Shown here: piece by piece, positions 1,826-16,712 of the stretch | Layout: each line of letters opens with the position of its first letter | Numbering within the stretch: the stretch's first letter is position 1 | NCBI GenBank assembly: GCA_947175435.1 | Contig: CAMWMS010000007.1 | Location: forward strand, 1-37,455 | Direction: 5' to 3' | Origin: an uncultured Lachnospiraceae bacterium | GTDB lineage: Bacteria; Bacillota; Clostridia; Lachnospirales; Lachnospiraceae | Length of the DNA stretch: 37,455 bases | Translations under genes and position numbers: made by a program | Notes under the pieces: model-generated | Databases searched by the model: none | Told to the model about the DNA's origin: nothing | What the model saw: only the letters and a program-made list of their open reading frames with translations

Positions 1826-1852
1826 GGAGCGAAAGCGCAGCGGCGAAGATAT
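1823..1852 (+). repeat. Truncated copy (E3) of the 137-bp palindromic-arm element
   Basis: Bases 1826-1852 match the core end and inner arm of element E2 (reverse strand) at 26 of 27 positions, including AGCGAAAGCGCAGCG and CGAAGATAT. No matching left arm or remaining core is found upstream, where the hydrolase ORF lies. The hydrolase stop TAA (1823-1825) sits exactly at the edge of the match. This looks like a remnant left by deletion or recombination. It has the same orientation as E1. Confidence 0.7.
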
Positions 1853-1914
1853 GAATTTCGGCTGTGCCGACGATTTTGACAAGCCATGAAAAGTAACGAC
1901 AGGAGAGAGCGAGA

Positions 1915-6792: not shown

Positions 6793-6845
6793 GAATGGCA
6801 CTGTGTAATACTTATGATTTTACTCTACAGCTAACCAATGCATTA

Positions 6846-6982
6846 GCTCGATCTGCGGTTAATTTCTTAAGGAGCCCCTTAAAAAGCGTCTGCACTTAGC
6901 GAGGTTTTTCACGAGCTTAGTGTCAGCTACGCTTTTTACGGAGCGGGAGCGAGGCGACGAAGAAATTAACCGCAGGTCGAGC
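6846..6982 (+). repeat. 137-bp palindromic-arm element, copy E1
   Basis: The element lies in the 259-bp gap between a GT4 gene and the radical SAM gene. Arms at 6846-6868 and 6960-6982 are 23 bp each and pair at 22 of 23 positions; the exception is T-G, a wobble in RNA. Both ends read GCTC...GAGC. The 91-nt core (6869-6959) contains further inverted repeats: AAGG/CCTT, AAAAAGCGT/ACGCTTTTT, and CACTTAGC against GCTTAGTG with one mismatch. The core is 81% identical (74/91, no gaps) to copy E2 in reverse orientation. There is no T tract after the hairpin and no obvious target-site duplication. The flanks (6793-6845 and 6983-7051) hold nothing else I recognise except a small CTTGC-GAA-GCAAG hairpin near 7010. 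Confidence 0.9.
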
Positions 6983-7051
6983 GGACCTTTATAGAACAAG
7001 TGTGCAACTTGCGAAGCAAGCAGCCTACAATATAGATTGGAGATAACTTTC

Positions 7052-8050
7052 ATGTCAAGAAGAACCCTATACGGCACAGTCATCGTAACCTATCGATGCA
7101 ATGCCCACTGCAATATGTGTGACTGCTTCAAGGATCCCACCAGACCGGAGGAGGAGATCACACTGGAAGATATCAAGAAGCTGCCGGAGATGGCATTTAC
7201 CAATATCACGGGCGGGGAGCCTTTTATCAGGCAGGACATTCCCGACATTGTGCGTGAGCTTTACAAGAAATCTGACCGGATTGTCATATCTACCAATGGC
7301 TATTTTACGGAGCGGATCATCGCCCTGTGCAGACAATTTCCGAAAGTGGGAATCCGCATCAGCATCGAAGGGCTGCAGCAGACAAATGATGCGATCCGCG
7401 GTATCCCCGACGGTTTCAACAGGGGCTATAATACACTGAAGACGCTGGTGGAGATGAAACACCCGGATGTGGGATTCGGCATGACGGTGCAGGATATGAA
7501 CTGTGAAGATCTGGTGCCGCTTTACAATATCGCCAACGATATGGGCATGGAGTTTGCTACAGCCACGCTGCATAATTCTTTTTATTTCAGAAAGACTGAT
7601 AACAAGATTGATGATAAATATAAAGTGGCGCAGAATTTTGAGAAGCTAATCAATGAGCTGTTAAAGAGCCGTTCGCCTAAGAAGTGGTTCCGGGCATATT
7701 TCAACCACGGATTAATAAACTATATTTACGGCAACAAAAGGCTTCTGCCCTGTGACATGTCCAAAAATGCTTTTTTTATTGATCCGTTCTGCGATGTCAT
7801 TCCTTGTAACGGCATGGAGAAGAAGGCTGTGATGGGCAATCTGCGTGAGAAGAGCTGGGACGAGTTGTGGAATTCTCCACAGGCGCAGAAGGTCAGGGAG
7901 TGTACGAGAAACTGTGACAGAAACTGCTGGATGATCGGTTCCGCGTCGCCGGCGATGCATAAATATATCTGGGTACCCGCATGGTGGGTTGTGAAGCATA
8001 AATTCTTAAAGGGCGGTAAATACAGTTTGAAGGAGAATAAGTTTATATGA
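7052..8050 (+). CDS. Radical SAM protein with SPASM-like C-terminal domain
   Basis: A 332-residue protein with the radical SAM cluster motif CNAHCNMC (Cys16, Cys20, Cys23), followed by NITGGEPF, the GGE S-adenosylmethionine-binding motif. STNGYF and RISIEG mark later strands of the partial TIM barrel. The C-terminal part has cysteines in LPCDMSK, FCDVIPCNGM and CTRNCDRNC, plus MGNLREKSWDELWNS, the usual signature of a SPASM/twitch auxiliary-cluster domain. The start is ATG 7052, since GGAGA at 7039-7043 overlaps the upstream TTG proposed in the ORF track. It is first in the block after element E1 and overlaps the next gene by 4 bp (ATGA), so it is co-transcribed with glycosyltransferases. Substrate unknown; a sugar, lipid carrier or peptide modification are all possible. 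Confidence 0.85.
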   Translation: MSRRTLYGTVIVTYRCNAHCNMCDCFKDPTRPEEEITLEDIKKLPEMAFTNITGGEPFIRQDIPDIVRELYKKSDRIVISTNGYFTERIIALCRQFPKVGIRISIEGLQQTNDAIRGIPDGFNRGYNTLKTLVEMKHPDVGFGMTVQDMNCEDLVPLYNIANDMGMEFATATLHNSFYFRKTDNKIDDKYKVAQNFEKLINELLKSRSPKKWFRAYFNHGLINYIYGNKRLLPCDMSKNAFFIDPFCDVIPCNGMEKKAVMGNLREKSWDELWNSPQAQKVRECTRNCDRNCWMIGSASPAMHKYIWVPAWWVVKHKFLKGGKYSLKENKFI

Positions 8051-9186
8051 GATTCCTGTATGTAGCCCCGCGTTATCACACGAATCAGATGGATATCATG
8101 AAAGGGCTGATAGAACATGGGCATGAGGTCTGTTTTATCAGCCATTATGCCGCTATCATAGAGGATTATTCCTATGTGACGCCGATCGTATTGGGGTATT
8201 CACGATTGTATCGGCTATTGGATTATCTGTACGTACATGTAATCCACAGAAAAGACCCTGAGGCTATCGTATTTAAGATACAGCATGGATTTCCGCCCAT
8301 GCGCAGGTTGAAGAAACTGATCTGTGATTTTAAACCCGATGTTGTGATTCTCAGAGAGCGTTCCGTATACTCTATGGCAGCATATCTGGTTTGCAGACGA
8401 AAAGGATATCCTTGTATTCTCTATAACCAGAATCCATTGTGGTCAGAGTCGGTAAAGACCGACCTTGCGCATCGTATCGTGGCCAGATTGTCGCCGAAGC
8501 TGCGCATGACGCCTGTTATGGGGATTCGGAAGCAGGGAACGTCTATCAAGGAGAATGACTATTTTGTGCCTTTTATTATGGAACCCCAAAAGGCGCCGGA
8601 GGAGAGGACCTATTTTGAGAATGATACGATACATATCCTCTGTATCGGGAAATATGAGATCAGGAAGCACCACTTGCTATTGATTCAGGTGATAGAGGAA
8701 TTGGTTGGGAAACATGGCAGAATAAAGCTGACATTGATCGGCGAAGCGACGAATCATTTCCAGAAAGAATACTGCGGGCAGATCAGGCAGTATGTGTCGG
8801 AACATCACATGGAAGATATCGTTACGGTTAAGACGAACGTGCCCCGTAGCAAAATGGAAGCGGAATATCTGGCGGCTGATCTGTATGTGATTCCCAGCAC
8901 CCGTGAGATGGCATCGGTGTCACAACTGGAAGCTATGAGCTATTCTCTTCCGGTGATCTGCAGCGATTTAAATGGTACCGCCTGCTATGTGGAGGACGGT
9001 GTGACGGGATATCAGTTTAGGGATTGCGATCAGGCGGATCTGAAAGAGAAGCTGGCTATGATGTTATCTGACAGAGAGCAGATGAAAGAGATGGGGGCGG
9101 CGGGGTATCGGGCGCTCACAGAGAAGTATAATTATGAGAATTATTACCGTACCATCATGCAGATGCGGGATAAACTGCTGCAATGA
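8047..9186 (+). CDS. Glycosyltransferase family 4
   Basis: A 379-residue GT-B protein translationally coupled to the radical SAM gene (ATGA overlap). The N-terminal half opens MRFLYVAPRYHTNQMDIMKGL and includes KPDVVILRERSVYS. The C-terminal half has ILCIGKYEIRKHHLLLIQVI (start of the donor domain) and STREMASVSQLEAMSYSLPVI, the GT4 E-x7-E region, followed by YVEDGVTGY. Its basic, hydrophobic stretch near residues 55-65 may help membrane association. Substrate is not predictable from this. Confidence 0.85.
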   Translation: MRFLYVAPRYHTNQMDIMKGLIEHGHEVCFISHYAAIIEDYSYVTPIVLGYSRLYRLLDYLYVHVIHRKDPEAIVFKIQHGFPPMRRLKKLICDFKPDVVILRERSVYSMAAYLVCRRKGYPCILYNQNPLWSESVKTDLAHRIVARLSPKLRMTPVMGIRKQGTSIKENDYFVPFIMEPQKAPEERTYFENDTIHILCIGKYEIRKHHLLLIQVIEELVGKHGRIKLTLIGEATNHFQKEYCGQIRQYVSEHHMEDIVTVKTNVPRSKMEAEYLAADLYVIPSTREMASVSQLEAMSYSLPVICSDLNGTACYVEDGVTGYQFRDCDQADLKEKLAMMLSDREQMKEMGAAGYRALTEKYNYENYYRTIMQMRDKLLQ

Positions 9187-9198
9187 CAGGGGGCTTAA

Positions 9199-10080
9199 AT
9201 GAAACGTAAGATTAAGGATATTCTGGCAGCGATAGTCTATTTTTTATATGAAAAAGGTATCCTGCACAACCGGATAAAAGTGCATACCATTGACGAGACG
9301 ATCGACGAGCTTCTGAATACCGATAAGAGCATGGTGCGGTTTGGCGACGGGGAGATCGTTATGATCAGAGGTGTGGATCTGATGCTGCAGCAGGCCGCGC
9401 CCGAGATCGGGGAAGGACTTGCAGAGATTCTGACATACCAAAACGATGATCTGATGGTGACCATTCCTGATATTTTCCATACGCTTTCAGATCATCATAG
9501 GGCGAGCAGACAGTTCTGGATGGACCATCTGCTTTTTAACAGGAAAGTATACGAGAAGTACTGTAATAAAGACCGCATATACGGTTCCACGTTTGTGTCC
9601 CGCTGCTATTATTTTGCCTCGGACCGCAGCAGGTGTGCAGGATGGTTTGCAAAAATAAGAAAAATATGGGAAAATAAAGACATTGTGATCGTGGAGGGCA
9701 CGAGGACCCATAACGGTGTCGGCAATGATCTGTTCGACTGCGCGGCAGGTATTGAGAGGATCATATGTCCTCCCAGTAATGCCTATGGAGCGCTGCCGGA
9801 GATTGTAGAGGCGTGTCTTTCTTATAATAAGGACAGGCTGTTTCTCTTATCGGTCGGTGTTGCCGCGAAATTTCTGGCGATGGAATTGTTTCGGAGGGGA
9901 TATCGGGTGCTGGACATCGGTAACATGGATATGGAGTATGAGTGGTATCTGAGAAAGACGCATGATAAGATGTCGCTGGAGAAACATAATGTGATCGGTG
10001 AGAAAGCAAATCGTCAGGCAGCGGCGGATGATGGGGCATACGCAGAATATTTGCAACAGGTGAAGGTGTGGCTGACGTAG
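9199..10080 (+). CDS. GT-D fold glycosyltransferase (DUF1792 type)
   Basis: A 293-residue protein with the pattern SMVRFGDGEIVMIRG near residue 44. The DGE triad in this position is the metal/nucleotide-sugar binding motif of GT-D (DUF1792) enzymes, first described in streptococcal serine-rich-repeat glycoprotein glycosylation. Also seen are STFVSRCYYF near 113, IVIVEGTRTHNGVGNDLF near 154 and LLSVGVAAKFLAMELFRRGYRVLDIGN near 213, all typical of the family core. An AGGGGG site lies 5 bases before ATG 9199. It is likely cytoplasmic and adds a hexose to a growing glycan. Sugar specificity is unknown. Confidence 0.83.
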   Translation: MKRKIKDILAAIVYFLYEKGILHNRIKVHTIDETIDELLNTDKSMVRFGDGEIVMIRGVDLMLQQAAPEIGEGLAEILTYQNDDLMVTIPDIFHTLSDHHRASRQFWMDHLLFNRKVYEKYCNKDRIYGSTFVSRCYYFASDRSRCAGWFAKIRKIWENKDIVIVEGTRTHNGVGNDLFDCAAGIERIICPPSNAYGALPEIVEACLSYNKDRLFLLSVGVAAKFLAMELFRRGYRVLDIGNMDMEYEWYLRKTHDKMSLEKHNVIGEKANRQAAADDGAYAEYLQQVKVWLT

Positions 10081-10100
10081 GATAGAGGTTAGAAAAGAGT

Positions 10101-10673
10101 ATGATAGACAGTAAAGAGGCATACAGACGTTATCTTGCACAGGACAGACTGGCGCTTAACAGACAACAGGACAGGCACCCGAGATTTTTCGGAGATGAGA
10201 TCTGGAAGTTCGAGATTCTGCTTCGTAAAGTAGAATATGATCTTAACTGCCGTCGGGGAGTATTTGGCCGGATTGTAGGAAAATACCATAAATTCCGGTT
10301 TCATCGTTTAAGTGTAAAATTGGGTTTTACGATTCCGCCCAATGTGTTTGGCGAGGGATTGTCGATTCCACACTATGGAACGATAGTAGTGCATGGCAGT
10401 GTGAGGGCAGGCAGGAACTGCCGGCTGCAGGAAGGCGTGACTATCGGGGCTACAAATGGAAGCCATAAGGCGGCGGTGATTGGGGACAACTGTTATTTCG
10501 GAAGCGGTGCGAAAGTGCTGGGGGAGGTTACTGTGGCAGATGATGTGGCGATCGGTGCCGGAGCGGTGGTCACGAAAGATATTACGGAGCCGGGCACTAC
10601 CTGGGGTGGCGTACCGGCAAGGAAAATCAGTGATCGTGATTCCCACAGCAATCTGTGCAAGGCACTTTTCTGA
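10101..10673 (+). CDS. Serine-acetyltransferase-like hexapeptide acyltransferase
   Basis: A 190-residue protein with a helical N-terminus and a left-handed beta-helix made from hexapeptide repeats over residues about 85-175 (IPHYGTIVVHGSVRAG, GVTIGATNGSHKAAVIGDN, VLGEVTVADDVAIGAGAVVTKDI). It closes with WGGVPARKI, the usual acyl-CoA-binding end of CysE/WcaB-type O-acetyltransferases. Lying between a glycosyltransferase and an ABC flippase, it more likely O-acetylates a glycan sugar than serine; that is inference from context. Confidence 0.8.
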   Translation: MIDSKEAYRRYLAQDRLALNRQQDRHPRFFGDEIWKFEILLRKVEYDLNCRRGVFGRIVGKYHKFRFHRLSVKLGFTIPPNVFGEGLSIPHYGTIVVHGSVRAGRNCRLQEGVTIGATNGSHKAAVIGDNCYFGSGAKVLGEVTVADDVAIGAGAVVTKDITEPGTTWGGVPARKISDRDSHSNLCKALF

Positions 10674-10740
10674 TCAAATGTCTGTCGGGAGATTTCATCC
10701 GTGGACAATTGGACGGAAATATGAAGGAGTATCTTAATAA

Positions 10741-12522
10741 ATGAGCGGAGCAAATGAGAACAAAAGAGCTGGAATGCTTACCAAGCTGGGATATATTTTC
10801 GACAAGAGAGATAAATGGAAGATCGGTGCGCTGCTTGTGGCCGTGGTTATTGGCAGTTTGCTGGAACTTTTGGGCGTAACAATTTTTATGCCTTTTATTA
10901 ATATTATCCAGGAACCTGAGACAATCCGGAAGACCTGGTATCTCAAATGGGTGTATGAGCTGTTTCATTTTCAGTCTGCGAAAAGCTTTTTGGCAGCATT
11001 ATCGGTGGCTATTATAGCGGTTTATATCATTAAGAATGTATATCTGATTATTGAGAAGAGCTATATATATCGATTTTCTTATAATACGCAGATGAAATTA
11101 TCCACGCGGTTACTTAGCACATACATGAGAGAGCCGTATACTTTTCATCTGAATAAGAATATCGCTACACTACAGAGAAGCCTGCATGAGGATACATCGA
11201 AATTTATGCAGGTAATTCTCTATTCACTTGAATTGGTAGCGGAGCTTGCAGTTTGTTTTGTGCTGGTGGTGTATCTGTTCTTTGAGAGTAAGACCATCAC
11301 TGTCATTGTTCTGGGGCTGCTGGCGGTATGTGTGGGGGCGTTTTTGCTTCTTACAAGAAAATACAGTCGTAAACTGGGAAAAGACAATCAAGAATATCAG
11401 GGCAAGATCTTCCAGTGGATGAATCAGGCGCTTGGTGGGATCAAAGAGATCAAGATACTGGAAAGAGAAGAGTTTTTTACGGATGAATATCGTAAATATT
11501 ATGTAAAATATGCGATTGGACTTAGAATTGCGAGGACGATTTCCATTCTCCCCAAATATGTGGTGGAGGCTGTGGCAATCTCCGGACTTCTGGTGGGGAT
11601 CATTGTTAAGCTGTTGCTGGGGAAAGCAGATATGACCTATTATATACCGCAGCTGACGGTGTTTGCGGTAGCGGCTTTCCGCCTGATGCCCAGCGTAGGG
11701 CGTATCAATGAGCATGCGACCAACACACTGTATGCTTTACCGTCCGTGGATCTGGTCTATCACGATCTGGTGGAGATTGAAGATTACATTGAGAAACAGG
11801 ATCGTGAGGAGAAGGAGGAATGGAATCTACAGAAAGGTATCGAGGTACAGAATGTGACCTATTATTATCCCGATACCAATGAGCCGGTGATCGACAACGC
11901 CAGTCTCTCCGTCAGGAAGGGACAGACAGTGGCATTTATAGGAGCTTCCGGCGCCGGTAAGACTACTATGGTGGATATTATACTGGGACTGCTGACACCG
12001 CAGAGCGGTGTTGTTATGGCAGATCATATTAATGTACATGAAAAGCCTAAAACATTTCATGCACAGATTGGCTATATCCCGCAGGTAATTTATTTGTCGG
12101 ATGATACGATCCGTAATAATATAGCTTTCGGTGTTAAACAGGAAAACATTAACGAACAGGCGGTGCTGCAGGCAATAGAGAAAGCACAGCTTACCGAGTT
12201 CATAGATAGTCTTCCACACGGACTCGATACGATAGTAGGTGACAGAGGTGTCAGATTATCCGGCGGACAGAGGCAGCGTATCGGAATTGCAAGAGCACTC
12301 TATCATGATCCGGAGATACTTGTGCTTGATGAGGCGACTTCGGCATTGGATAATGACACAGAGGCGGCGGTCATGGAAGCGGTGGAAAATCTGCAGGGCA
12401 CAAAGACGATGATTATTATTGCACACCGCCTGACAACGATCCGCAATGTGGACATAATCTATGAAGTTGAGGACGGTAAAGTAGTTGAGAAGAGCAAGGA
12501 TGAAGTGTTCGGCATACAGTAA
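10741..12522 (+). CDS. ABC transporter, fused permease-ATPase (PglK/MsbA-like flippase)
   Basis: A 593-residue half-transporter. Residues about 25-320 form a six-helix type-1 exporter domain; the ATPase follows from about 365. Walker A is GASGAGKTT (401-409), the signature is LSGGQRQR (506-513), Walker B is ILVLDE (526-531), followed by the D-loop SALD and a switch His in IIIAHRL. Within glycan loci this architecture is found in PglK-type lipid-linked oligosaccharide flippases and in MsbA. A second, clearly related transporter occurs at 33067. The two share TFHxN, RxxPSVG, DDTIRNN and the region around the signature. It presumably flips an undecaprenyl-linked glycan made by the block it sits in. 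Confidence 0.88.
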   Translation: MSGANENKRAGMLTKLGYIFDKRDKWKIGALLVAVVIGSLLELLGVTIFMPFINIIQEPETIRKTWYLKWVYELFHFQSAKSFLAALSVAIIAVYIIKNVYLIIEKSYIYRFSYNTQMKLSTRLLSTYMREPYTFHLNKNIATLQRSLHEDTSKFMQVILYSLELVAELAVCFVLVVYLFFESKTITVIVLGLLAVCVGAFLLLTRKYSRKLGKDNQEYQGKIFQWMNQALGGIKEIKILEREEFFTDEYRKYYVKYAIGLRIARTISILPKYVVEAVAISGLLVGIIVKLLLGKADMTYYIPQLTVFAVAAFRLMPSVGRINEHATNTLYALPSVDLVYHDLVEIEDYIEKQDREEKEEWNLQKGIEVQNVTYYYPDTNEPVIDNASLSVRKGQTVAFIGASGAGKTTMVDIILGLLTPQSGVVMADHINVHEKPKTFHAQIGYIPQVIYLSDDTIRNNIAFGVKQENINEQAVLQAIEKAQLTEFIDSLPHGLDTIVGDRGVRLSGGQRQRIGIARALYHDPEILVLDEATSALDNDTEAAVMEAVENLQGTKTMIIIAHRLTTIRNVDIIYEVEDGKVVEKSKDEVFGIQ

Positions 12523-12531
12523 GGCTGCAGC

Positions 12532-12550
12532 CTGAACTGTTACGATAAAG
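12532..12550 (+). repeat. Half-site related to the 14171-14228 hairpin
   Basis: CTGAACTGTTACGAT followed by AAAG lies in the 45-bp gap before the GT-C gene. It matches the right arm of the hairpin at 14217-14231 at 14 of 15 bases. No partner arm is present nearby. It may be a remnant or a short repeat; no function is claimed. Confidence 0.45.
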
Positions 12551-12567
12551 ACAGATGGGAGACGGTT

Positions 12568-14130
12568 ATGTCGAAAAGCAGTAAATTGACGCAGTGGGAC
12601 GGGAAACAGAAAGAGTGGATGTTCTTTATATCTTTGTTGATATTTTCGCTGTTTATTTTCATGATTCCCGGCGAGTCTGGATATGTTCTGTTTGATGACA
12701 GCAGTTCCTATATGAATCTTTATGCCAATATGGAAGGGGTCATGCCCGGATATCCACTGTTTCTGCATGGTAATAAGCTTATGTTTGGGGAGGAAAATTA
12801 TCTGTATGCGGTAGTGTTGGAACAGGCGGTTCTTGCTACTGTATGCGTGATCGCTTTTATTGCGTTTATTAAGAAAAAATTTCGTCTCAAATATTGGGAA
12901 GCTTATGTATGCTATGCATTGGCGCTGCTTCCGTTTACGACAAATATGCCGGATTCCATGACGACGCATGAGATCGTGACAGAAGGAGTTGCCTATGCAC
13001 TATTTTATCTGTTTATGGCGGCGTTATTACAGACTGTTTGGAATAAGAGTTTTAAATGGCTGATCATATTATGTGGCATGACACTGTTTTTGTCGCTGAT
13101 CCGGTCACAGATGCAGATACTCTTCGGTGCATGTGGTGTAGTCTGCATCTATATTGCCGTTTTGAAGCCTGGGAAGTCGGATGGGAAAAATGGCAGACGG
13201 TTGTTGAGGTTTCTTGGCGGGATGGTCTGCTGTATGGTAATCGGTCTTGCGGGCATATGGGCTGTCGGGAAGGTTAGCACAGCGTTTCAGAATATGAAGG
13301 CGGAAGTGAGAAGAGAAGAACAGAAGAATGCACAGCGGGCAAAGAGCGATGCATCATCTGATTCGGAGAATGCGCAGGAACAGAAAAAACCTGCGAAACC
13401 TGTCATTACGACAAGCCAGTATGTTACATTGATCCTTTCCAGAGGATTGTATGAGTCTGATTATGAGGATCACCTTTTGTTTGAGGATGAGCAAGTGAGA
13501 GATCTGTACCTTTTTATATATCCGCGTCTGGATAAGGCACAGAATCGTTATGTGTATGCGCGGCCCGGATTGTGGATGTGGAAGGACATTGTAGGAGGGA
13601 TCGGTCGCATTGGCGAACAATGTTACCATAATCAAAATAGTTTTTATAGCGAGAATTATCCGGAACTTGTATATAGCAGCAACTATTCTTCCGTAAGAAA
13701 TGCCAATCAGGTAAAAATTGGTGTGACACTGATTAAGGTGCATTTTGGAAGATTCCTGTATCATACGCTTATGCTGCTTCCGCAGGCGTTTATCTGCACG
13801 GTATTCTTCCAGATCGAGCGAATCTATCTGCTGTGCCATTTAGTTACCCTGTTCTTATATCTCTTTGCGATGGCATTAATGATATGGGCATATAAGGATA
13901 AAAAAGTAGAAAACACCTATGGAGAGTTTATGTGCAGTGTGTTAGGGACGAATCTGATTCTTATATTGGTGATTTCTCTGGTGTTTTTCGGGCAACAGAG
14001 ATATCTTGTATATAATTTCGGTACTTTCTATATATCGGGATTTCTGTTATTTATGAAATTATGGAGATTGTATCTACGTGACCTGGCAGTGCAGGTGTGG
14101 GGCCGTATAAGACATAGGAACAGTCTTTAA
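12568..14130 (+). CDS. Multispanning membrane protein, probable GT-C glycosyltransferase
   Basis: A 520-residue protein with about ten membrane helices. The first external loop contains YVLFDDSSSYMN (residues 39-50), an acidic pair in the position where GT-C enzymes carry their catalytic Asp/Glu. The last external region has FFGQQRYLVYNFGTFY, resembling the QRY motif seen near the end of many bacterial GT-C proteins. A charged, low-complexity segment rich in E, K, Q and S occupies about residues 245-285. The next two genes are a GT2 that looks like a polyprenyl-phosphate sugar synthase and a DUF2304 protein, so this enzyme likely transfers the sugar from polyprenyl phosphate to the glycan outside the membrane. 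The family call rests on topology, the acidic loop and context. Confidence 0.65.
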   Translation: MSKSSKLTQWDGKQKEWMFFISLLIFSLFIFMIPGESGYVLFDDSSSYMNLYANMEGVMPGYPLFLHGNKLMFGEENYLYAVVLEQAVLATVCVIAFIAFIKKKFRLKYWEAYVCYALALLPFTTNMPDSMTTHEIVTEGVAYALFYLFMAALLQTVWNKSFKWLIILCGMTLFLSLIRSQMQILFGACGVVCIYIAVLKPGKSDGKNGRRLLRFLGGMVCCMVIGLAGIWAVGKVSTAFQNMKAEVRREEQKNAQRAKSDASSDSENAQEQKKPAKPVITTSQYVTLILSRGLYESDYEDHLLFEDEQVRDLYLFIYPRLDKAQNRYVYARPGLWMWKDIVGGIGRIGEQCYHNQNSFYSENYPELVYSSNYSSVRNANQVKIGVTLIKVHFGRFLYHTLMLLPQAFICTVFFQIERIYLLCHLVTLFLYLFAMALMIWAYKDKKVENTYGEFMCSVLGTNLILILVISLVFFGQQRYLVYNFGTFYISGFLLFMKLWRLYLRDLAVQVWGRIRHRNSL

Positions 14131-14170
14131 GGTGCGGGTTGAGAATGGGACATGGATATAAAGATGAATG

Positions 14171-14228
14171 GTAACTGTTCAGAAGGGGCATCTTCGTAAC
14201 TGTGAAGAACAGGGTTCTGAACAGTTAC
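14171..14228 (+). repeat. 58-bp perfect inverted repeat with nested hairpin
   Basis: Arms GTAACTGTTCAGAA (14171-14184) and TTCTGAACAGTTAC (14215-14228) pair perfectly over 14 bp. The 30-nt loop contains a second hairpin TCTTC-GTAACTGT-GAAGA (14191-14208), whose loop repeats GTAACTGT of the outer arm. It lies in the 131-bp gap between the GT-C and GT2 genes, upstream of the GT2 ribosome binding site. No T tract follows, so it is not a standard terminator. It may be a transcript-processing or stability hairpin, or a small palindromic repeat. Confidence 0.8.
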
Positions 14229-14261
14229 GATGATTGTAAAGAGATAGAGGATGTAAATGAT

Positions 14262-14981
14262 ATGACGGACGCAAAAGTGCTGATTATTATTCCGGCATAC
14301 AATGAGTCGGAAAGCATTGAAAATGTGATAGATCATTTGACGGATCAGGCGCCGTGGTGTGATTATCTGGTTATTAATGACGGCTCTACGGACAATACAT
14401 TGAGTATCTGTGAGCAGGAACATTTTCATTATCTGGATCTGCCGATTAATCTGGGAATCGGCGGTGCCGTGCAGGCAGGGTATGTATATGCCCGAAAGAA
14501 CAATTATGACATTGCTGTGCAGATGGACGGAGACGGGCAGCATGATATTGCCTATCTGAAGGATATGCTACAGCCTATTCTCGACGGGGAGGCGGATATT
14601 GTAATCGGGTCGCGTTTCCTGAAAAAAGAAGGATTTCAGTCCTCCCAGTCGAGGCGGATCGGGATCGGAATCTTAAGTATGTTGATCCGGTTGACTACGG
14701 GGCAGAGAATCATAGATGTGACCAGCGGTTATCGTGCGGTCAACAGGATGTTTATCGATATTTATTCCAGGGATTATCCGACGGATTATCCGGAGCCGGA
14801 AGCAATCGTTACTGCCATAATGCACAGAGGCAGGGTGAAGGAAGTGCCGGTCAGGATGCGGGCGCGGGAAAGCGGAACCAGTTCCATTACGCTGCGCAAA
14901 TCCGTCTATTATATGATTAAGGTGACACTGGCGATTCTTATCTGTCGGTTAAGCTACGGCTTCAGGAGGGCTAAGAGATGA
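14262..14981 (+). CDS. GT2 glycosyltransferase, polyprenyl-phosphate sugar synthase type
   Basis: A 239-residue GT-A enzyme of the dolichol-phosphate-mannose synthase branch of GT2. It opens VLIIIPAYNESESIENVID, then VINDGSTDNT, LGIGGAVQAGYVYA and QMDGDGQHD (the DxD-like metal site). EPEAIVTAIMHRGRVKEVPV and RESGTSSI mark the usual C-terminal region. I chose ATG 14262 over the track's GTG 14202, because the longer start would place the inverted repeat inside the coding region and lacks a ribosome site. The next gene overlaps by 4 bp and encodes DUF2304, a frequent partner. Likely role: loading a sugar onto undecaprenyl phosphate on the inner leaflet. Confidence 0.87.
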   Translation: MTDAKVLIIIPAYNESESIENVIDHLTDQAPWCDYLVINDGSTDNTLSICEQEHFHYLDLPINLGIGGAVQAGYVYARKNNYDIAVQMDGDGQHDIAYLKDMLQPILDGEADIVIGSRFLKKEGFQSSQSRRIGIGILSMLIRLTTGQRIIDVTSGYRAVNRMFIDIYSRDYPTDYPEPEAIVTAIMHRGRVKEVPVRMRARESGTSSITLRKSVYYMIKVTLAILICRLSYGFRRAKR

Positions 14982-15361
14982 TTCCGTCTACGCTGCGTAT
15001 AACACTGATCATTGCAGTTGTATGCTATTTTATTATTATTTTGTATTTTCTTAAAAATAGGGCGTTGAACTTAAAATATACACTCCTGTGGCTTTTGGCG
15101 GGCGTAGTGATGGGAGTGCTTGTGATTTTTCCGGAAATGTTGCAGCGTATTATACGTGTATTCGGTATTCAAAGCAACATGAACGGTCTGTTTATTATCG
15201 CAATCGGGTTTATGCTCATGATATTGATGGCACTGACTTCCATTGCATCCAGACAGAACATGAAGATTAGATCACTGGTTCAGGAGATCGGTATCCTTGA
15301 TAAGAGAATTCGGGAGCTGGAGGATGGACATAGTGACAGTGTGGGTGAGAGAGATGTCTGA
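14978..15361 (+). CDS. DUF2304 small membrane protein
   Basis: A 127-residue protein with three predicted helices: about 7-26, 35-54 (LLWLLAGVVMGVLVIFPEML) and 72-92, followed by a charged, probably coiled-coil tail (VQEIGILDKRIRELEDG). The pattern and its coupling to a GT2 polyprenyl-phosphate glycosyltransferase match DUF2304. The biochemical role is not established as far as I know. From context it could help flip or channel the polyprenyl-phosphate sugar, by analogy with GtrA, or anchor the GT2. It overlaps the genes on both sides. Confidence 0.8.
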   Translation: MIPSTLRITLIIAVVCYFIIILYFLKNRALNLKYTLLWLLAGVVMGVLVIFPEMLQRIIRVFGIQSNMNGLFIIAIGFMLMILMALTSIASRQNMKIRSLVQEIGILDKRIRELEDGHSDSVGERDV

Positions 15362-16478
15362 CAGAATGGAAATAGCAATCGATCTGTTGTGGCTCAGGCC
15401 CAGACAGGTAGGTGGGACTGAATTTTATATCAGAAATTTATTGGATGGTTTTCTGCGGCTTGAAGAGGACTACCATTTTATCCTGCTTGTATCAAAAGAT
15501 AATAGAGATTCGCTTTCACATTATGCGAAAGATGACAGAATTTCCCTGCTGGAGGCCAATGTAGAATCCGCGAATATCGCGAGGCGTATCCTCTGGCAGT
15601 TTTTCTGCCAGAACAGGCTGTTACGCAGGAATCATATCCGCAAGTGTTTTGTTCCGGTGTACTGCCGTCCGCTTTTCAATGGCGGAATCACTTATATTAA
15701 TGTAATTCATGATCTGCAGGCCGCGCATTATCCTGAATATCATCCATTCCATGAGATCGCTTATTCCAGATTGTGTTGGTGGTTGGATGTGCATTTTTCC
15801 AAACATATCGTGGCGATATCCGACTGGGTGCGGGAGGATATCATGGTCAGATATCATGTGAAGCCGGAGAAGATCACGACGATCTATAATCCTATTACGG
15901 TAGATCCGAACGAGATGGTATCGATGACAGAACTGTCTGAGAAGTACGGTGTCTCGGAAAATGAATATTACTATACGGTTTCACAATTGATACCACACAA
16001 GAATCTGGACACGATCATTGAAGTTATGAGCTGGATCAAAGAGCAAAAGATTGACTTGCCGGGCAGGCTTTTGATTTCCGGCGTAAACGGGGAGAGCCGG
16101 AAGACATTGGAGCGGCAGATACGGGACAGAGGACTGGACAGGGAGATCACACTGACCGGGTTTGTGGAAAATGTTGAACGGAACGCTCTATATAAATACA
16201 GCAGAGCATTTCTGTTTCCCAGTGTGTTTGAAGGGTTCGGGATGCCGCCGATCGAAGCGATGCTTTTCGGAACCGTTGTAATTGCGGCGGACAGGACATG
16301 TATTCCTGAGGTGACACAGGGAAAAGCAAATTATGTGGCGGATCCTTATGATGTGCAGGAATGGATTCGGGTTATGCAGGCTCCTGTGGACAGGATCGGG
16401 GAGATGGATTTTGGGGTGTATGATCAGGGAAGACTGACGAGGAAATATTATCAGATGTTATTGGATATGTTGGGATGA
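15354..16478 (+). CDS. Glycosyltransferase family 4
   Basis: A 374-residue GT-B enzyme. Its N-terminus reads IAIDLLWLRPRQVGGTEFYIRNLLDGF, with the acceptor-side glycine loop. CFVPVYCRPLF and ISDWVREDIMVRYHV are typical of mannosyltransferase-like GT4 proteins. The donor domain has YTVSQLIPHKNLDTIIEVM, TGFVENVERNALYK and FEGFGMPPIEAMLFGT with the E-x7-E pair. The track start at 15297 would overlap DUF2304 by 65 bp. ATG 15354, with GGTGAGAGAG just upstream and a short overlap with the DUF2304 stop, is more likely. It is the last gene of the block bounded by E1 and E2. Confidence 0.87.
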   Translation: MSDRMEIAIDLLWLRPRQVGGTEFYIRNLLDGFLRLEEDYHFILLVSKDNRDSLSHYAKDDRISLLEANVESANIARRILWQFFCQNRLLRRNHIRKCFVPVYCRPLFNGGITYINVIHDLQAAHYPEYHPFHEIAYSRLCWWLDVHFSKHIVAISDWVREDIMVRYHVKPEKITTIYNPITVDPNEMVSMTELSEKYGVSENEYYYTVSQLIPHKNLDTIIEVMSWIKEQKIDLPGRLLISGVNGESRKTLERQIRDRGLDREITLTGFVENVERNALYKYSRAFLFPSVFEGFGMPPIEAMLFGTVVIAADRTCIPEVTQGKANYVADPYDVQEWIRVMQAPVDRIGEMDFGVYDQGRLTRKYYQMLLDMLG

Positions 16479-16528
16479 GATGAAGGCTTGAGGTGATTAT
16501 TTACGTCCACGGGTTATCTAAGACGGAC

Positions 16529-16665
16529 GCTCAGAGGGAAGTCAATATCTTCGTCGCTGCGCTTTCGCTCCGTTCCGAGCGTAGCGGACACTAAGTTCGT
16601 GGAATACCTCACTAAGTGCCGACGCTCTCCAAGGGGCTCCTTAAGATATTGACTTCCCTCTGAGC
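16529..16665 (-). repeat. 137-bp palindromic-arm element, copy E2 (inverted relative to E1)
   Basis: Arms at 16529-16551 and 16643-16665 are 23 bp each and perfectly complementary (23/23). The core at 16552-16642 is 91 nt, the same length as in E1. Arm ends GCTC/GAGC and the inner CTT/AAG are shared with E1, but nine arm positions differ, each compensated on the opposite arm. In the core, E1's AAAAAGCGT/ACGCTTTTT stem is represented by GAGCGT/ACGCTC, which includes one compensated A-T to G-C change. The rest of the 234-bp gap (16479-16528 and 16666-16712) shows nothing I recognise. No T tract follows the hairpin. Confidence 0.9.
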
Positions 16666-16712
16666 TGGTTTGTGGGTGGCCGGTGGATAATAACGATGAA
16701 TAAGAGGTGTTT

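Follow-up and report, generated by a model that had tools for sequence, protein, structure and literature searches.

What keeps two arms of DNA complementary while their sequence changes? This question is raised by two elements, E1 and E2, in a 37,455-nucleotide stretch from an uncultured Lachnospiraceae bacterium (contig CAMWMS010000007.1; hereafter the window). E1, on the forward strand, consists of a left arm (6846..6868), a core (6869..6959), and a right arm (6960..6982). E2 lies on the reverse strand, with its left arm at 16643..16665, its core at 16552..16642, and its right arm at 16529..16551. A preliminary description of the window had reported a common geometry of 23-bp arm, 91-nt core, and 23-bp arm, and we found this to be exact. 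The cores align without gaps and agree at 74 of 91 positions (81%), and direct reading of the sequence gives the left arms the same letter at 14/23 positions. The arms pair at 22/23 positions with Watson-Crick pairs plus one T-G in E1, and at 23/23 in E2. The explanation that we hold with good confidence is that both are old copies of a non-autonomous miniature inverted-repeat transposable element (MITE) of ~196 bp, whose structure has been kept by selection for pairing.

A dispersed family with paired arms

A 177-nt query gave 40 scored BLAST matches in the window's genome. For the core we also built a covariance model, R1 (96 positions, 33 pairs), which leaves out the arms except for two pairs. 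R1 scored E1 at 112.5 bits and E2 at 95 bits and, at a threshold of E ≤ 0.001, matched at least 66 copies in the same genome. With so many matches from both searches, the resemblance of E1 to E2 is not due to chance, and the earlier view of a defined element rather than chance palindromes holds. Extended to relatives, as the preliminary description had proposed, the model found matches in 58/60 genomes of the window's genus (at least 69 in some genomes) and in 53/150 genomes sampled from Lachnospiraceae. An order-level sample of 295 genomes contained 24 positives, every one from Lachnospiraceae, and none was found outside this family. By record title, the carriers are Lachnospiraceae such as Clostridium symbiosum, Butyrivibrio, Mediterraneibacter, Hungatella, and others. 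Plasmid and phage collections contained no match. The window and eight hairpin loci had no Rfam match at the gathering score, and E1 had none at E ≤ 10, in agreement with the earlier failure to recognize a named family. Open-licence papers yielded neither the family nor the hairpin sequence in a relevant context.

On the plus strand, the long arm helix (P1) leads through an internal loop, which consists of tandem G-A or of Watson-Crick pairs, to a junction with two hairpins. One of these, P2, contains a tandem G-A step in addition to a T-T mismatch; the other, P3, is capped by a GNRA loop. In E1, P2 is the apical hairpin CACTTAGCGAGG...ACGAGCTTAGTG (6893..6922), a module that is also found alone elsewhere, and P3 is GC-GGGA-GC (6943..6950). 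In about a quarter of the copies in the window's genome (L043, L045, L048, L050, L051, L053-L056, and others), 15 nt are inserted in the apical loop and form an additional hairpin, GAGTTGCAAAGCAACTC. At L048, degenerate direct repeats of ~21 nt occupy the stretch left of the element (about 2600-2790). In an alignment of 40 sequences, 92% of the cells were paired, compared with 31-47% in slid structures. Both sides had changed in 22 of the 33 core pairs, compared with 11.0 in shuffles, and 0/500 shuffles reached 22; two-sided changes occupied 133 cells and one-sided changes 8. This covariation of the core had escaped the preliminary description, which had recognized that of the arms. Because the structure was drawn from these same sequences, whose relatedness inflates such counts, we examined a set of 73 divergent copies with less than 85% core identity from many genera. 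The T-T mismatch was invariant (73/73), a GNRA loop was present in 71/73 copies in six different versions, and the plus strand was more stable than the minus strand in 64/73.

In 61 of these 73 copies the arms pair over at least 12 bp, and their sequences are unrelated; the arms of one copy (L084) extend to 35-37 bp with perfect pairing. Hence, the arms of homologues are neither all identical nor non-complementary, and it is the pairing and not the sequence that is maintained, as had been suggested from E1 and E2. This result for the 73 copies is the best evidence for maintained pairing.

Pairing might also arise as a by-product, if template switching in the palindrome copied one arm onto the other and haplotypes then spread or converted, with no function required. 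The small number of one-sided intermediates would fit this idea. So would an orthologous pair of copies (L042 and L167) that differs by several simultaneous paired changes matching other subtypes; part of the between-copy covariation within one genome does stem from whole haplotypes spreading or converting. However, free copying of arm onto arm should erase mismatches, and the T-T mismatch, the tandem G-A, and the GNRA loop are retained in the same foldback; in addition, the plus strand is favored. Hairpin-templated repair alone, one of the mechanisms offered in the preliminary description, is therefore disfavored, and we consider pairing without function unlikely.

Terminal repeats, target duplications, and candidate transposases

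The 137-bp hairpin unit first described is indeed a defined one, but it is neither the full element nor immobile. Intact copies measure 195-197 bp, with subterminal and terminal-repeat sequence extending ~28-30 bp beyond each arm. In these copies the outer sequence is conserved over ~30 nt per side and ends in inverted repeats, GTTACTRTTCA. Target duplications of 8 bp are perfect (8/8) at L039, L175, and L272 and nearly so at L121 (7/8), and 8/8 duplications also flank short derivatives (56 to 86 bp) that share these ends, at L274, L277, and L278. The other copies with recognizable ends show fewer duplication matches, as expected of old insertions. An empty site, which the preliminary description had proposed to look for in relatives, was found in one case: a copy in genome G080 (L175) corresponds to a contiguous orthologous stretch without the element in the window's genome (L198). 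The copies examined are intergenic and short, without coding capacity for a transposase. The family thus has what defines a MITE, including the terminal repeats and 8-bp duplications missed earlier, except for an identified partner.

From the intact copies we placed the ends of E1 at 6819..7012 on the forward strand and those of E2 at 16499..16694 on the reverse strand. The terminal repeats of both have decayed, and no target duplication is visible in their flanks; the outer ends of E1 agree with the terminal-repeat consensus at 12/22 positions, near the shuffled level. E1 and E2 are old copies that have kept the arms and core and lost recognizable ends. In genome G062 (L072), an element lies in the opposite orientation between the same genes that flank E1, and it is apparently an independent insertion. 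In 95/128 full elements the right end is closer to a gene than the left end (p = 4e-8, with genes called by a simple open-reading-frame rule). A third copy in the window, which had been overlooked, is truncated at its 5' side (1826..1897, forward strand); it retains P3, the right arm, and an intact right terminal repeat, TGAAAAGTAAC, and lies directly 3' of a stop codon.

The loss of ends allowed arm pairing to be compared with mobility. In the window's genome, 16 copies have no recognizable ends, their outer ends matching the consensus at a mean of 10.2/22 positions (10.8 when shuffled). Their arms are 93.0% paired, compared with 94.4% in 11 copies with ends, so arm pairing is not a by-product of recent movement. 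The interior fold of the plus strand would then be retained through selection for base pairing, also after the terminal repeats are lost. Several of the end-less copies have near-consensus arms, so slow decay may not explain all of them: some may have lacked these ends from the start.

Two further small elements have comparable termini. One is a palindromic mini-element of 58 bp in the window (14171-14228), which lacks the structured core; its ends, GTAACTGTTCAGAA, are related, and its target duplication matches at 7/8. The other, at L107 (3786-3943), is 157 bp long, with ends GTTACARTTCAG and an 8/8 duplication, AGCTCGCA; it is perhaps another member of the same terminal-repeat group.

Target duplications of 8 bp are typical of the IS66 family, and the element is probably moved in trans by a DDE transposase that would be IS66-like. 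Genomes G080 and G023 encode IS66-type transposases with GTWACTRTTCA-like ends nearby. Both ends of an IS66-like element at L215:3175-5451 are 18/22 alike, without a duplication; at others the similarity is one-sided. A Y1/RAYT transposase was rejected as the partner, there being no match to one in the window's genome (82% complete). We also rejected an IS4-family partner, which had been suspected because its ends lie beside GTTACTATTCAC in G023 and G030. Three copies of the IS4-type element have ends of their own, CAATGTCATT, and 10-bp duplications. One of the three (L223) interrupts the core of a member of the E1/E2 family, so the IS4-type element is more likely a passenger than a partner. 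At odds with this, the case in G030 (L220) has both outer ends and a 6/8 duplication. IS4-type insertions with ends CAATGTCATTAAGTTA lie within the element core at L223 (about 1334-2913, 10-bp duplication TTACGGAGCG) and at L041 (about 49-125). Both occupy one and the same site in the core, which may therefore be preferred as a target.

The plus-strand fold as RNA or single-stranded DNA

If the fold works as RNA, G-U pairs should be tolerated on its strand and A-C pairs should not. We counted 42 G-T and 34 A-C pairs in the core and 46 and 22 in the arms; in tRNAs of these loci, each placed in the 3' register that gave its best pairing, the counts were 18 and 0. The share of G-T among paired cells was 1.9% in the core, 3.5% in the arms, and 7.7% in the tRNAs. 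One column contributed 11 of the 34 core A-C pairs, and most of the remainder lay at the base of P2, where the pairs are poorly aligned. Where a copy is sense to the genes on both sides, the ratio of G-T to A-C was 33:5, compared with 36:19 in antisense copies (p = 0.03, uncorrected for relatedness), a weak hint that the transcribed strand matters. As modeled, the GNRA loops and the difference in stability favor a single-stranded fold of the plus strand, be it RNA or DNA; both features fit RNA, whereas the scarcity of G-U fits DNA. On balance, we lean modestly toward a fold that acts as RNA within untranslated regions (UTRs) of host transcripts rather than as a single-stranded DNA hairpin. The structured hairpin might there be bound by a protein or influence RNA processing or decay.

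Several results weigh against the overall explanation, the mobility as well as the RNA role. Scarce G-U together with core A-C pairs nearly as common as G-T is not a typical RNA pattern. For 128 full elements, with genes called by a simple open-reading-frame rule, the downstream gene was sense in 54/128 and antisense in 74/128. Full elements have no promoter of their own (no enrichment over shuffled flanks on the left side) and no terminator; hardly any T-run follows the arms, and an intrinsic terminator was rejected on this ground. The copies were detected via the core, which under-samples those with decayed cores. We found no autonomous partner and no copy of a candidate with matching ends on both sides and a duplication, and the window's genome, which is 82% complete, gave no match to an IS66 (PF03050) or Y1 (PF01797) transposase.

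The fold could alternatively act as DNA, as a hairpin or cruciform recognized by a transposase, recombinase, or replication factor, like REP/REPIN, IS200/IS605 ends, and attC. Watson-Crick pairing would then be needed and G-T would be a mismatch, consistent with the base-pair counts of the core. GNRA-type loops and tandem G-A form in DNA too. Of 15 close element pairs, 14 have their left ends facing each other, an arrangement also reported for REP dimers (PMC3733652); such pairs at L023, L035, L048, L103, L159-L163, L246, L249, L260, and L270 are spaced by 180-400 bp. A DNA fold is less easily reconciled with the persistence of pairing in copies without recognizable ends, with the lack of a Y1 transposase in the window's genome, and with the 8-bp duplications, which indicate a DDE transposase for which a folded interior is unnecessary. 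We regard it as a real possibility, though a secondary one.

Solitary hairpins and comparison with known repeats

The apical hairpin also occurs solitary or in tandem, in Butyrivibrio, Mediterraneibacter, Konateibacter, and others, where it often adjoins TATAAT-like boxes or follows terminators. At L097, L109, L119, L126, L136, L139, L151, and other loci, such hairpins lie between promoter-like boxes and gene starts, and the genes that follow include tpiA-like and coaBC-like ones (named from their first codons). Unlike full elements, the solitary hairpins were mostly sense to the downstream gene (27 sense, 8 antisense; a few of the 35 counted are full elements with an atypical P3). Judged from sequence, they provide a lead toward a cis-acting RNA module. 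In a tentative and rather doubtful extension, the CTTAGYGAGG...CGARCTTAG hairpin would be a module to which an undescribed regulator of Lachnospiraceae, either a protein or a ligand, binds. Alone or in tandem this module would act as a cis-acting RNA in the leaders of host genes, and its dispersal through genomes would be due to a MITE in which it is enclosed by a self-paired arm helix that differs between lineages.

Given the sense bias of the solitary hairpins, the RNA-like motifs, and the covarying plus-strand structure, the family could also be read not as a transposon but as a small RNA gene standing alone or as a conserved regulatory RNA that acts in cis. The full elements do not share this bias, show no promoter enrichment and hardly any T-run, and exist in dozens of dispersed copies with target duplications. 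A stand-alone RNA gene was rejected on the missing promoter enrichment, and we consider the wider alternative very improbable.

ERIC, bcr1, YPAL, and NEMIS/Correia are known structured small repeats or MITEs (PMC2267715, PMC10969869, PMC3446304), from which the E1/E2 family differs in its branched core, lineage-specific arms, and host range. ERIC, of Enterobacteriaceae and Vibrionaceae, is similar in being a small, dispersed, intergenic element with a predicted long stem-loop and tens to hundreds of copies, and it can alter the levels of transcripts that contain it (PMC2267715, PMC10969869). It belongs to another bacterial group and forms a single stem-loop of ~127 bp, whereas the E1/E2 family has non-canonical conserved pairs in its core; we saw no sequence relation, setting ERIC apart without an alignment. 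The bcr1 and other bcr repeats of the Bacillus cereus group are MITE-like intergenic Firmicute repeats whose secondary structure is conserved and which often lie in UTRs (PMC3446304, PMC2267715), but they are confined to that group, and no Rfam or sequence link to the E1/E2 family was found. Correia/NEMIS of Neisseria is a MITE of ~200 bp (Correia 204 bp) whose transcribed copies are cleaved by RNase III (PMC10969869). There the terminal repeats themselves pair, while the E1/E2 family pairs through arms that are internal to the terminal repeats and surround a conserved core. REP elements are palindromic and dispersed, with head-to-head dimers predominant (PMC3733652). REP/REPIN sequences are 20-40 bp long, with GTAG or CGTC tags and a RAYT (Y1) transposase, in contrast to a 137-bp foldback in a 196-bp element with terminal inverted repeats and 8-bp duplications. 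Membership in this group was rejected on size and on the lack of a PF01797 match in the 82% complete genome.

The E1/E2 elements form a new family of structured MITEs, which can be compared with ERIC, bcr1, and Correia/NEMIS. Because it is absent from Rfam, annotation that relies on this database should miss it. Structured MITEs were already known; here, many genera of a major gut family have retained one fold with RNA-like motifs, and its arm helix has been rewritten from lineage to lineage. The family is a dense natural data set for asking whether selection acts at the level of RNA, DNA hairpin, or repair, and, to judge from the solitary hairpins in front of genes, the element may be a vehicle for regulatory modules.

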